Virus record (IMG/VR): IMGVR_UViG_3300022538_000110
Location: 1 to 23,969 of that record
Length of the DNA: 23,969 nucleotides
Strand: one strand, 5' to 3'
Origin: a virus
Both the position numbers and the translations under genes were made by a program. Under the pieces are notes generated by a model. It searched no databases, had not been told where the DNA came from, and saw only the letters and a program-made list of their open reading frames with translations. Below, piece after piece: positions 6,190-23,515 of this stretch (position 1 is its first letter; the number at the start of each line of letters is the position of its first letter).

Positions 6190-7119
6190 ATGTCAAAAGA
6201 AGAAGTCAATAACCTTGAAAAACCTACCCCGAAAGGACAAGTAGGTAAAGAGGCTGATGAAATCAAAGACATTGACGAGCTTTCCCATGAAGAACTCAAG
6301 AAGAAAGTAATGGCTGAAAGTGAAAAAACTGAACCCAAAGATGAACCCAAAGATGAACCCAAAGATGACCCTAAAGATGACCCTAAAGATGAAGTTAAAG
6401 ATGAAGTTAAAGATGAAGAAAAAGATGAAGAAAAAGAAGAGAAAGAAACTTGGGAACAAAAATATGATAACTTACGCAAATTACAAAGTTCCCAAACTGA
6501 CGAACTTGGAGACCTGCGTAAATTCAGAAAGGAAACTGAAGAATTAAAGGAAAAGACTAAAGAATATCAGATAAACTCTACTAAAGACCACATCCTTCGA
6601 CAAGTCGAAGAAATGAGACCCGAAGAGAGAGAGAAATTCTATGAAAAATTTAGTGAGAGTCCTGATAAAGCTTTAACACCGCTTATTTCTAAGATACTGT
6701 CACCTTTTATGATTATTCAAGCAAGACATAACAATGAATTGGTAAAATCCAAATTAAGAAAGGATACCAAAGACAGTATAATTCCTTATGAAAAGTACGA
6801 AGATGAAATTAACGAAACACTAAACAAATACAACAAAAATGGTAGAAATGAATTGTTTGATAAATTCGGTTCAGGTGCTTTTGAAGAAGCCTATAATGTG
6901 GTTTACAAAAAGCACATAAAAGAAGAAACAAAGAAAGAAAAAGAGGAAATCGTGGAGAAAGCAAAAAAGGAAGCAGAGGAAGATTTTAACAAGAAAAAGA
7001 ACACATTTACAGAACCGCAAGGTAAATCGTCTGCTTCAAAGGGTGGGAAGCCAATTAATCCTGAAAATTTGACTTACAAACAATTAGCTAAAAAAGTTGG
7101 CAAACCGAATGATGATTAA
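6190..7119 (+). CDS. capsid scaffolding protein
   Basis: A 309-residue, very charged protein immediately upstream of the major capsid gene, as scaffolds are. The N-terminus is acidic, then comes a tetrapeptide repeat (EPKD/DPKD/EVKD/EEKD, about residues 48-84), then a long coiled coil (about 85-150), a helical middle, and a second coiled coil near 235-275 (KEEIVEKAKKEAEEDF) before a basic Gly/Ser/Lys tail, the usual capsid-binding end. The family acts inside the prohead to nucleate and shape the shell and leaves before or during packaging. AGGAGG lies 9 nt before ATG 6190. The acidic repeat is unusually regular. Confidence 0.8.
   Translation: MSKEEVNNLEKPTPKGQVGKEADEIKDIDELSHEELKKKVMAESEKTEPKDEPKDEPKDDPKDDPKDEVKDEVKDEEKDEEKEEKETWEQKYDNLRKLQSSQTDELGDLRKFRKETEELKEKTKEYQINSTKDHILRQVEEMRPEEREKFYEKFSESPDKALTPLISKILSPFMIIQARHNNELVKSKLRKDTKDSIIPYEKYEDEINETLNKYNKNGRNELFDKFGSGAFEEAYNVVYKKHIKEETKKEKEEIVEKAKKEAEEDFNKKKNTFTEPQGKSSASKGGKPINPENLTYKQLAKKVGKPNDD
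6331..6438 (+). repeat. 12-bp tandem repeat inside the scaffold gene
   Basis: Nine 12-bp units of the form GAACCCAAAGAT drift stepwise through GACCCTAAAGAT, GAAGTTAAAGAT and GAAGAAAAAGAT, each encoding four residues ending in KD. Neighbouring units are identical in pairs or triples, the pattern of recent slipped-strand or unequal-crossover expansion. The array is a likely site of length variation between related phages. Confidence 0.9.
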
Positions 7120-22300: not shown

Positions 22301-22519
22301 GCAAGGGAAAAATTTATTCCTATGTATATTCAAGACATAACAGAAGCTTATATGGATGGTGGATTAGGAAGGTCTGTGGGAGCTGGACTTCCAGCATTCT
22401 TCGGAGTGGGTGTTCAAACTTGGCAAGAAAGAAAAAAGAAAAAACAATTAGCAGAAATATGGAAAACACTCGAAGCTAAAAAAACAAAGAAATCCGATAT
22501 ATGGGCAACGTTTGAATAA
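19394..22519 (+). CDS. large internal virion protein, 1041 residues
   Basis: The largest gene of the window. Residues 1-200 are charged and helical with Pro/Glu/Lys linkers. Near 205-235 is a hydrophobic stretch (MIAVGVGMAYQLVNAAV). The middle (about 380-500) is Glu/Lys-rich linker. The last 430 residues form a conserved-looking block (DLGNLPRAILATADMSAFLR, then membrane-like FVVFGLTLLALIKASGLG) resembling domains in phage large polyvalent and ejection proteins. No transglycosylase motif was recognised. It probably travels with the DNA into the cell. The C-terminus holds two copies of a motif, EIWKTLE and SDIWATFE, the second shared with the convergent gene. ATG 19394 overlaps the upstream gene end (TAATATG), with no Shine-Dalgarno of its own. 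Confidence 0.7.
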   Translation: MQKIWDIFKEKKEEIKLGSQFGGGWGISDIVKKEEEKDVFKPQIGLDIKPEITPIKPEEKGFAVKPEESENILSNLLATMEDYKRQINELESIGKERPFVEVELRNYRYAIGQYNKAVNKYNEIIKKPEITTKPKEKPKPLFQDEKMMELHKINFESFKLWFKELKESKDKIAFFKGEGQSPELKELRKQYKEKAPYMYEKSEQWISNVSMIAVGVGMAYQLVNAAVTSGFKVKDKVINAKELREVLARARAAYVPETGKFKTTLSDNDFAIMKQLNIFFKTSGRGTAAREMLEKIVEKTGGLSFPQQVNIFGTKLYAGLPADEIVKSLVKAGKVTANIARELSLAKPELVSQVIQNLSFASPVIASKLAPELVKLIPKTEPKELTKEEIYAEKYGIPLEKVKITEVPKEELKETIGEKEIKALEEAIGKKPERILEKPLTGKEKFLAKMEEIRAKKVEKPLLEEEVTVSLEEEGKVEALWAGEEVGGTEEITDPVDKLNELIKKAKPLRGRLETKYTEERAKRIKEVERVIDEVGGEEGYRIALSKLKGELVKPETKITFEPIKDKLSKPELDNLYNSTFKHPYLDEWEKISAASELTKLLQGELPTPKGLVLLEEIYGSSLIKSVLSKRALGLKITDVLIDLGNLPRAILATADMSAFLRQGIIPVISHPVISVKAMKKTFQFAFSPKAFDQYFKDLRKDKLYPLIRKSGLSITDPSGLASEREEAFISRSLQKTPIIGDVVKFAERAYVGFLNKVRVDLFKTFADELLSKGFSPVKDINLFKATADVVNTFTGRGSMGTLNRITPQLNIIFFSPRLITARFNALNPIWYAKMPKEIRMKAIGDFSKFVVFGLTLLALIKASGLGDVETNPRSSDFGKIRIGNTRWDIWGGFQQWVRVFAQVVTGQRKNTATGEIISLTKDEYPFTTRKEVALRFIEGKLAPVPALVNELISGAKTFEGEDISLRTVAREKFIPMYIQDITEAYMDGGLGRSVGAGLPAFFGVGVQTWQERKKKKQLAEIWKTLEAKKTKKSDIWATFE

Positions 22520-22533
22520 AATTATTCAAACGT
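22508..22533. terminator. convergent-gene palindrome
   Basis: ACGTTTGAATAA (22508-22519) and TTATTCAAACGT (22522-22533) are perfect 12-bp inverted arms two bases apart. Each arm holds the last three sense codons and stop of one converging gene. The weaker symmetry extends to 31 bp per side. No U-tract follows on either strand, so it is a candidate two-way transcription barrier rather than a proven intrinsic terminator. Confidence 0.6.
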
Positions 22534-22725
22534 CTTCCAAATGTCTGATTTGCTTGAACCATAACTTGTATTCACTCGACCCGTTATAGTGTTTATTCTT
22601 GTAACAACAACTGTATTTTCATCCACTCTAACTGACTGTATCTGATACTTCGGCACGACTAAATAAACTAACCCACACATAACAACCACAATCAACCCTA
22701 TTAAAAGAACTTTTTTAATATTCAT
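22522..22725 (-). CDS. small single-pass membrane protein
   Basis: A 67-residue protein: MNIKK, a transmembrane helix (about 6-27, VLLIGLIVVVMCGLVYLVV), a short soluble beta-rich part (VRVDENTVVVTRI) and a tail ending SDIWKTFE. It has no lipobox. Its ATG shares a base with the stop of the upstream lipoprotein gene (TAATG), and its ribosome site GGGGG lies inside that gene, so the two are coupled. The tail nearly repeats the end of the large virion protein encoded on the other strand. Part of a likely moron; an envelope role such as exclusion is inferred, not shown. Confidence 0.72.
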   Translation of the reverse strand: MNIKKVLLIGLIVVVMCGLVYLVVPKYQIQSVRVDENTVVVTRINTITGRVNTSYGSSKSDIWKTFE

Positions 22726-23147
22726 TATACCCCCTGATCATATATTTTCCAACTACCACCGACTTTTTGTAAATATGTATACCCATATTTAATATCGCTT
22801 TCTGCATAACCACAAGCAGTCAAAAGAACAGTTACATGAACGTAAGCTTCCGCATAACTACCATAAACACTAACACTAATAACATCTACAAAATAAGTTA
22901 TTGTTACAACATTACAATATAAATATAAAACATTGATAGCATCTTCTATAATCGAAACTCTATAATAAGCATCTGAACCGTAAATACAATAACTTTTAGC
23001 CTTGTTCCAATTTTGGTCATTTATTGCAAGTGAAAAATTTTGTATAGTATTTCTTACACTTGTATCTTCACTAATGAGAACTACTGTGCAACCAGATAAA
23101 AATATAAATACCAGAAATAAAATTATAAAAGCTTTTTTAATGTTCAT
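22725..23147 (-). CDS. secreted lipoprotein
   Basis: A 140-residue protein with a type II signal peptide: MNIKK, a hydrophobic core and lipobox LSGC (Cys20, Thr at +2). The mature part begins with a helix around VRNTIQNFSLAINDQNWNKA and continues with strands ending GGSWKIYDQGV, a layout seen in small NTF2-like or DUF4878-like lipoproteins. I start at 23147, where GGGGGAATT precedes the ATG; nine extra residues upstream (MACLLFGGI) lack a ribosome site. Phage-encoded lipoproteins on their own promoter often alter the infected cell's surface, for example by blocking receptors; here that is inference. Confidence 0.78.
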   Translation of the reverse strand: MNIKKAFIILFLVFIFLSGCTVVLISEDTSVRNTIQNFSLAINDQNWNKAKSYCIYGSDAYYRVSIIEDAINVLYLYCNVVTITYFVDVISVSVYGSYAEAYVHVTVLLTACGYAESDIKYGYTYLQKVGGSWKIYDQGV

Positions 23148-23329: not shown

Positions 23330-23358
23330 ATTATAACAGAAAAACTCCTAAATTGCAA
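23330..23358 (-). promoter_or_regulatory. extended -10 sigma70-type promoter for the lipoprotein operon
   Basis: Read on the minus strand: -35 TTGCAA (23358-23353), 17-bp spacer, and -10 TATAAT (23335-23330) preceded by TG one base before it (extended -10). Predicted start is near 23323, at the foot of the leader stem. The -35 lies in the loop of the hairpin that would end the upstream transcript, so the two functions overlap. Confidence 0.7.
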
Positions 23359-23481
23359 TAGGAGTTCGCTGAAACGCTGAATTTGTATTTTTTTTAAAGA
23401 ACTTACCCTTACTTAATACCCACATACATATAGAAGAGTATTATATATCTCCTATATATACTTGAAGGGCTTCGCCCTTAA
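23338..23481 (-). ncRNA. putative short minus-strand RNA, about 140 nt
   Basis: Bounded by the near-consensus promoter at 23488-23515 and the hairpin plus T-tract at 23340-23366. It would begin with the small stem AAGGGC/GCCCTT (23479-23465), continue through an AT-rich part with no usable ORF, and contain a doubled TTCAGCG motif before the terminator. It may be a small RNA or only an attenuated leader. Confidence 0.4.
23340..23366 (-). terminator. intrinsic-type terminator of the upstream minus-strand transcript
   Basis: On the minus strand AACTCCTA (23366-23359) pairs perfectly with TAGGAGTT (23350-23343) around TTGCAATT and runs straight into a five-T tract ending at 23340. The stem is only moderately GC-rich, so termination may be partial, with read-through into the lipoprotein leader. 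Confidence 0.5.
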
Positions 23482-23487
23482 CTAAGA

Positions 23488-23515
23488 ATTATATCACAAT
23501 ATTTTTCGCTGTCAA
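23488..23515 (-). promoter_or_regulatory. near-perfect sigma70 promoter, minus strand
   Basis: TTGACA (23515-23510), 16-bp spacer, TATAAT (23493-23488): both hexamers match consensus exactly. It faces the lipoprotein operon and lies upstream of the terminator at 23340. Such a promoter would be used by unmodified host RNA polymerase early or during a prophage state. Confidence 0.78.

Follow-up and report, generated by a model that had tools for sequence, protein, structure and literature searches.

Two convergent genes of an uncultivated phage end in nearly the same peptide, encoded by one palindrome

Two phage membrane proteins, SieA of P22 (PMC10883804) and Ltp of TP-J34 (PMC3952083), act on the C-terminal regions of ejected proteins, while the phage polyvalent proteins, which are large, multidomain and encoded beside virion genes, are regarded as packaged in the virion and injected (Iyer et al., 2017, PMC5512222); these and all later statements on published work refer to the portions of the cited texts at hand. 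The subject of the present, purely computational analysis is the junction between two convergent genes in an uncultivated virus, IMG/VR record IMGVR_UViG_3300022538_000110, whose 23,969 nucleotides (nt) were analysed at full length and are called the window below. The genes for terminase, portal and capsid are followed in the window by those for internal virion and structural proteins; the last of these on the plus strand encodes a large late protein, and the gene that faces it on the minus strand encodes a small predicted membrane protein. The two proteins have almost the same C-terminal peptide, which is encoded by an inverted repeat spanning both stop codons. In the open literature, as far as titles and the beginnings of abstracts go, no description of a C-terminal peptide shared by convergent genes was found.

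The shared peptide and its distribution

The large gene ends in KSDIWATFE-stop and the small gene, read on the opposite strand, in KSDIWKTFE-stop, with 2 base pairs (bp) between the stops. The arms of the inverted repeat match at 24 of 30 positions and their innermost 12 nt (ACGTTTGAATAA) are identical; elsewhere in the arms the codons for Ser (TCC/TCA), Asp (GAT/GAC) and Ile (ATA/ATT) differ synonymously, and a single pair, GCA/AAG, changes the residue (Ala/Lys), so that nine of the ten codons, stop included, have equal meaning. A related heptapeptide, EIWKTLE, lies just upstream in the large protein. The two endings, the distance between the stops, the identical 12 nt, the codon differences and EIWKTLE had been described in an earlier note made from the letters alone, and the open reading frames and the sequence bear it out in every codon. 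A second record, 3300022539_000040, encodes both proteins at 100% identity to those of the window and has the same junction DNA.

Chance likeness of the two tails is ruled out by three scorings. For the last ten residues this pair scores 45 among the 465 predicted-gene pairs of the window, the next best reaching 10; against 200,000 random pairs drawn from 1112 C-termini of 18 contigs, a pool that includes this pair, P is about 3e-5; and in 71 convergent pairs (gap of at most 60 bases, 18 contigs) scored over eight residues, the window reaches 40 and the contig of one relative (G003, phage L022) 35, followed by 17 and, for all the rest, 6 or less. Among the orthologous junctions, the three listed have arms identical at 24, 24 and 17 of 30 positions, and no other convergent pair of that scoring exceeds 16; the value of 17 is not distinctive, because L092, a locus with a different small gene, also reaches it.

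The motif itself is narrowly distributed. A six-frame search of the window for the pattern [DE][IVL]Wx[TS][FLIVM]E gives three sites only, the two tails and EIWKTLE, which rules out a motif spread through the phage, and DNA coding for DIWxTFE-stop was found in the viral_contigs collection only in the identical contig and in one further match (L094) that does not coincide with a listed gene end. A general C-terminal motif of the large family was rejected as well: the tails of the relatives match genes of their own contigs weakly (best scores 5 to 14 over eight residues), the contig of phage L020 (G001) being absent from this scoring because the gene caller missed its large gene, so that its pair was scored separately. 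As a separate observation, in the more distantly related contigs G007, G008 and G009 the large protein and the late protein that precedes it both end in FN[KR] (KNRFNR/TRPLFNK; GNPFNK/DYFNR); G007 and G009 are counted as one because their tails are the same. In these relatives the endings are perhaps a C-terminal signal of internal virion proteins.

Independent phages with this convergent gene pair are four in number, the window, L003, L020 and L022, the small proteins of the three relatives being 48 to 54% identical to that of the window. Relatives of the small protein were sought in viral_contigs with a single sequence, two alignments and a DNA pattern, where two of the seven loci given by the pattern (L100 and L101) were set aside as chance occurrences; none was found in genome_contigs or plasmids and nothing significant in the phages collection. 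The scan of genome_contigs with the large protein gave one contig of a Bacteroidetes metagenome-assembled genome, too little to name a host. In L022 the large and small proteins end in QSTKLKFNF-stop and ESTKLKFRF-stop, peptides whose letters are unlike those of the window, and the arrangement recurs: eight of ten codons, stop included, give the same residue and the synonymous differences are ACT/ACG, AAA/AAG and TTG/TTA. Strong sharing of a tail is thus seen in two of the four phages, the window and L022. In L020 the tails are GKKFSF-stop and GHKYRF-stop, with arms matching at 18 of 30 positions and a likeness of P 0.0004 to 0.0015 against random pairs and 0.001 to 0.003 against shuffled tails; the C-terminal part of its large protein differs, by eye, from that of the window. 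The endings YRF, FRF, FSF and FNF of L020 and L022 resemble the C-terminal signal of outer-membrane beta-barrel proteins, a pattern that the tail of the window does not fit.

Hairpin and peptide as objects of constraint

As RNA, the junction of the window is very stable (z -8.1 for the plus strand and -5.8 for the minus strand; on each, 0 of 200 shuffles reached the same stability). The window has two inverted repeats of 20 nt or more whose arms lie at most 200 nt apart, and this one has the higher complementarity. Such stability is what would be expected if the junction were a two-way 3'-end hairpin between converging operons (a terminator, a protection of mRNA ends or a cruciform site) and the peptide were a consequence of symmetry about the stops. 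Convergent operons need transcription ends, the L022 junction also folds better than shuffled sequence (z -3.6) and the L003 junction does so more weakly (z -2.1), and in all six junctions compared (6/6) the stops overlap by 4 bp or lie at most 3 bp apart. Two properties were used to recognise an intrinsic terminator: a T run after a GC-rich stem, on one strand or both, and a stem stabler than the coding constraint gives. Neither was found: there is no terminator-like site at 22490-22551 of the window on either strand, nor at the L022 or L020 junctions, and the fold energy is ordinary when compared with synonymous encodings of the same peptides (P 0.26 and 0.34 in the window, 0.17 to 0.45 in the three relatives, both strands). 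The canonical two-way terminator is thereby ruled out, and the wider idea of a hairpin element, which is nearly absent in L020 (z -0.8 against shuffled sequence) and does not predict the bias towards third codon positions set out below, appears unlikely to us.

Two null models were used to separate the hairpin from the peptide. In the hairpin-only null, the same number of arm mismatches is placed at random and the equal codons are counted. The nine equal codons of the window have P 0.002, a value that is post hoc because the window was chosen for this feature; the eight of L022 have P 0.046 (0.063 with transitions and transversions kept). The joint P is 0.001 for the four phages, 0.037 for the three relatives when the window is left out, and 0.067 for L022 with L020, so that the behaviour of a short C-terminal motif, residues kept and synonymous change free, is observed with marginal support in the relatives taken by themselves (P 0.037 to 0.067). 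By codon position 1, 2 and 3, the arm mismatches number 1, 1 and 4 in the window and again 1, 1 and 4 in L022. The EIWKTLE copy, which lies outside the arms, is identical to the copy in the small gene at 15 of 21 nt, and its mismatches number 1, 0 and 5.

In the peptide-only null, both peptides are re-encoded at random with synonymous codons according to the phage's own codon use. The observed arm identity is slightly above the mean of these encodings in every phage (window 24 against 22.9, P 0.38; L022 24 against 21.4, P 0.14; L020 18 against 16.6, P 0.30; L003 17 against 14.5, P 0.14), none being significant singly, and the joint excess over the four phages is small (Stouffer z 2.09, P 0.018). 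Since arms and fold are near the expectation for synonymous encodings, the palindrome is mostly accounted for by the peptides; the small remainder of arm identity fits descent from an inverted copy or a weak effect of the hairpin. The claim of the earlier note that selection acts on the peptide and not on a hairpin alone is partly supported. For it speak the rejection of the hairpin-only null in the window, the arm identity and fold energy there, which are ordinary for synonymous encodings, the third-position differences of EIWKTLE and the recurrence in L022; against it speak L003, L081 and L092. Taken together, the data are better explained by a peptide kept after inverted copying than by a terminator.

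Origin of the shared tail

Further relatives bear on the direction of copying. L098, the fifth small protein of this family, is encoded in no convergent arrangement with the neighbouring gene, is not followed by a hairpin and ends in RSRSIWDKYK-stop, a tail that resembles that of the window small protein when both are anchored at the stop (P 0.0006 to 0.002 against random pairs, 0.002 to 0.007 against shuffled tails), while the end of the large protein is replaced wholesale between relatives. On these two grounds the tail looks older in the small protein, which suggests that the large gene captured it from the small gene. The earlier note had the membrane protein mimicking the ejection protein; the opposite direction is the more probable one. 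When the small tail of L020 is matched to its large protein of 1300 residues, the best sites include the terminal GKKFSF and, 15 residues earlier, GKKFTF, tied with one internal site. The record that carries L098 is a subject of its own: besides the gene for the small membrane protein, its 7855 bases hold an HK97-type capsid gene and, judged by eye, a terminase-like gene and genes for DNA-binding proteins, and from a terminal repeat of 77 bases it is probably a circular element of about 7.8 kb, possibly a satellite.

The account that we favour, tentatively and with slightly less than even confidence, is inverted copying followed by retention of the tail as a short C-terminal docking motif. We infer that an inverted copy of the small gene's 3' end was carried over the two stops into the 3' end of the large gene opposite, by template switching or a similar inverted duplication, and that the hypervariable and disordered end of the large protein would thereby have gained the C-terminal motif of the small protein and a stop. 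Both tails would since have been conserved as protein, with drift at synonymous sites, selection on the peptide being the presumed cause of its persistence, and the palindrome would now follow mostly from the encoding of equal peptides on the two strands.

A serious rival, which we rate as somewhat less likely, keeps the copying and dispenses with the function: inverted duplication, or homogenisation of the arms by template switching, would yield a shared peptide whose likeness fades by drift, gene ends being tolerant of new tails. Template switching is known to make and repair inverted repeats, in coding DNA too (PMC8794818, PMC8604942). The wholesale swapping of the large-protein end between close relatives, the arms that are slightly more alike than the peptides require (the joint P of 0.018 given above) and the lack of a clear common peptide in L003, L081 and L092 are also in keeping with neutral copying. 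Unconstrained drift, however, should not favour third positions, where the arm mismatches of the window and of L022 are concentrated; five of the six mismatches of the copy outside the arms are at third positions as well, and a similar tail is present on a small-protein homologue outside this setting, in L098.

Several points weigh against a tail retained by selection. Only four independent gene pairs were found in the collections searched, the evidence for peptide conservation that is independent of the window is marginal, and the hairpin-only null is not exceeded in L020 (P 0.40) or L003 (P 0.32; 0.3 to 0.43 overall). The tails of L003 (ISPIKVSF-stop and NKIRLID-stop) are weakly alike (P 0.016 to 0.14 against random pairs, 0.06 to 0.26 against shuffled tails), and its junction hairpin is in another register, with no clear common peptide. 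The case that the earlier note named as contrary to its proposal, a palindrome that persists while the peptides are lost, is therefore approached by L003, but with a different hairpin register and with a weak likeness of the peptides. In L081 and L092 the same large family stands opposite other small genes with no clear match of the tails (none in L081; P 0.02 to 0.06 in L092). The tails of L003, L020 and L022 contain much Lys, Ile and Phe, a composition in which weak matches arise readily. The large-protein tail is unrelated between the window and the relatives, although a docking motif under conservation would not be expected to differ in this way without a change of partner as well, and the direction of copying rests on one homologue, L098.

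Function, neighbourhood and comparison with known systems

The most economical function for the motif is a shared docking site: it would most likely be a short C-terminal docking peptide, through which the late, probably ejected, large protein and the membrane protein bind to one another or to a common partner at the host membrane. Structure models are in line with this. For the small protein AlphaFold predicts an N-terminal helix (residues 3-23, hydrophobic by eye), then three strands and a flexible tail at 58-67 (mean predicted local distance difference test score, pLDDT, 64.7, below 50 in the tail), and the model of the last 551 residues of the large protein has a mean pLDDT of 50.7 and a disordered end; given this low confidence and disorder, both tails look like free C-terminal peptides. 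The large protein has no match in Pfam, PHROG, PADLOC or NCBIfam, and its counterpart in L020 has an ART-PolyVal domain (E 5.5e-8), with a KptA-like match below the cutoff in L004. From the context of the virion operon and the domain of the L020 counterpart, the large protein is probably packaged or ejected. The small protein and the putative lipoprotein encoded next to it have no match in Pfam or PHROG at E 0.01 or lower (the lipoprotein query lacking its first three residues in these two scans and in a third, likewise without a match above the cutoff), none in PADLOC at E 0.1 or lower and only sub-cutoff matches in NCBIfam.

In the specific model of the earlier note, the membrane protein would keep out a second phage: it would display the tail of the large protein and so occupy the docking site that the latter needs on ejection. 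The minus-strand genes, a lipoprotein and a membrane protein beside the late operon with a promoter-like site of their own, speak for it, although promoter-like sites as a class are not enriched in the region (11 found, 14.5 expected), and escape from SieA maps to the C-terminal regions of the ejection proteins gp16 and gp20 (PMC10883804). No protein encoded here matched a known exclusion or defence family in Pfam, PHROG, PADLOC or NCBIfam, the precedents SieA and Ltp involve no shared peptide in the parts of their descriptions at hand, and with a tail that seems older in the small protein the large protein would be the likelier mimic. We consider this form of exclusion very improbable. A more far-reaching reading, which we would call quite unlikely, is that the late, probably ejected, protein captured the docking motif of the antisense membrane protein in two copies, by inverted copying over the facing stops, and that the matched tails are renewed as the motif changes from phage to phage. 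The palindrome would then hold a molecular mimicry that renews itself, with which to compete for a membrane site in entry, exclusion or escape from exclusion.

Table 1. Positions of the genes and sequence elements at and near the convergent junction (coordinates of the window).
Feature	Position	Strand	Remarks
Large late protein, 1041 residues	19394..22519	+	Open reading frame; final plus-strand gene of the virion operon
EIWKTLE, first motif copy in the large protein	22454..22474	+	Outside the hairpin arms; 14 residues ahead of the second copy
Left arm of the inverted repeat	22490..22519	+	Codes for KSDIWATFE and the stop of the large gene
Right arm of the inverted repeat	22522..22551	-	Codes for KSDIWKTFE and the stop of the small gene
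Small membrane protein, 67 residues	22522..22725	-	Open reading frame; motif in the tail; homologues in L003, L020, L022 and L098
Lipoprotein gene	22725..23147	-	LSGC lipobox by eye; its stop overlaps the start of the small gene (TAATG)
Promoter-like site TTGACA-16-TATAAT	23488..23515	-	Upstream of the minus-strand genes; consensus match only, 12/12

Other features of the window were recorded alongside those of Table 1. On the minus strand the promoter-like site (23515-23488) is followed, about 120 nt on, by a terminator-like hairpin at 23367-23342; the 151 nt at 23335-23485 form a stabler fold than their shuffles (z -4.2, 0 of 200) and match no Rfam family at the gathering threshold, and the segment 23335-23515 is a candidate for a small RNA or an attenuated leader. 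Two tRNA genes are present on the plus strand, for Thr (tgt, 760-836) and Met (cat, 915-988), and the gene at 6190-7119 (plus strand), which precedes the capsid gene, encodes an acidic run of PKDE/VKDE repeats.

If inverted copying with retention of the tail is true, facing stop codons would enable a gene to pass a functional C-terminal motif to the gene that converges on it in one step, the two being matched thereafter. It would also point to a membrane-side partner of the ejected proteins of phages. The pair of null tests, hairpin-only and synonymous re-encoding, is applicable to any convergent gene pair.

Among the closest systems described, template-switch repeats fit the origin proposed here, in that a single event suffices to create or mend an inverted repeat and to alter several codons at once (PMC8794818, PMC8604942). 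They are described for RNA genes and yeast coding genes, with no mention, in the parts of those reports at hand, of a repeat that straddles stops and equalises two C-termini. In the mitochondria of Nematomorpha, coding palindromes are perfect repeats that lie inside protein-coding genes (PMC6649704), unlike the present one, in which two genes on opposite strands encode the same peptide. For the function, SieA and Ltp are precedents in kind only. Ltp, a lipoprotein of a Streptococcus thermophilus phage, recalls the coupling of the small gene to a lipoprotein gene in the window, but it acts via repeat domains with negatively charged residues and not via a copy of the tail of its target (PMC3952083). 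SieA has no sequence match to the proteins of the window, and no tail peptide shared with its targets appears in the part of its description at hand; it is a phage inner-membrane protein, as the small protein may be, and its action depends on the C-terminal regions of the ejection proteins of short-tailed phages (PMC10883804). Finally, the large protein of the window is without the recognised domains of polyvalent proteins, which it resembles in its neighbourhood of virion genes and through its L020 counterpart with an ART-PolyVal domain.
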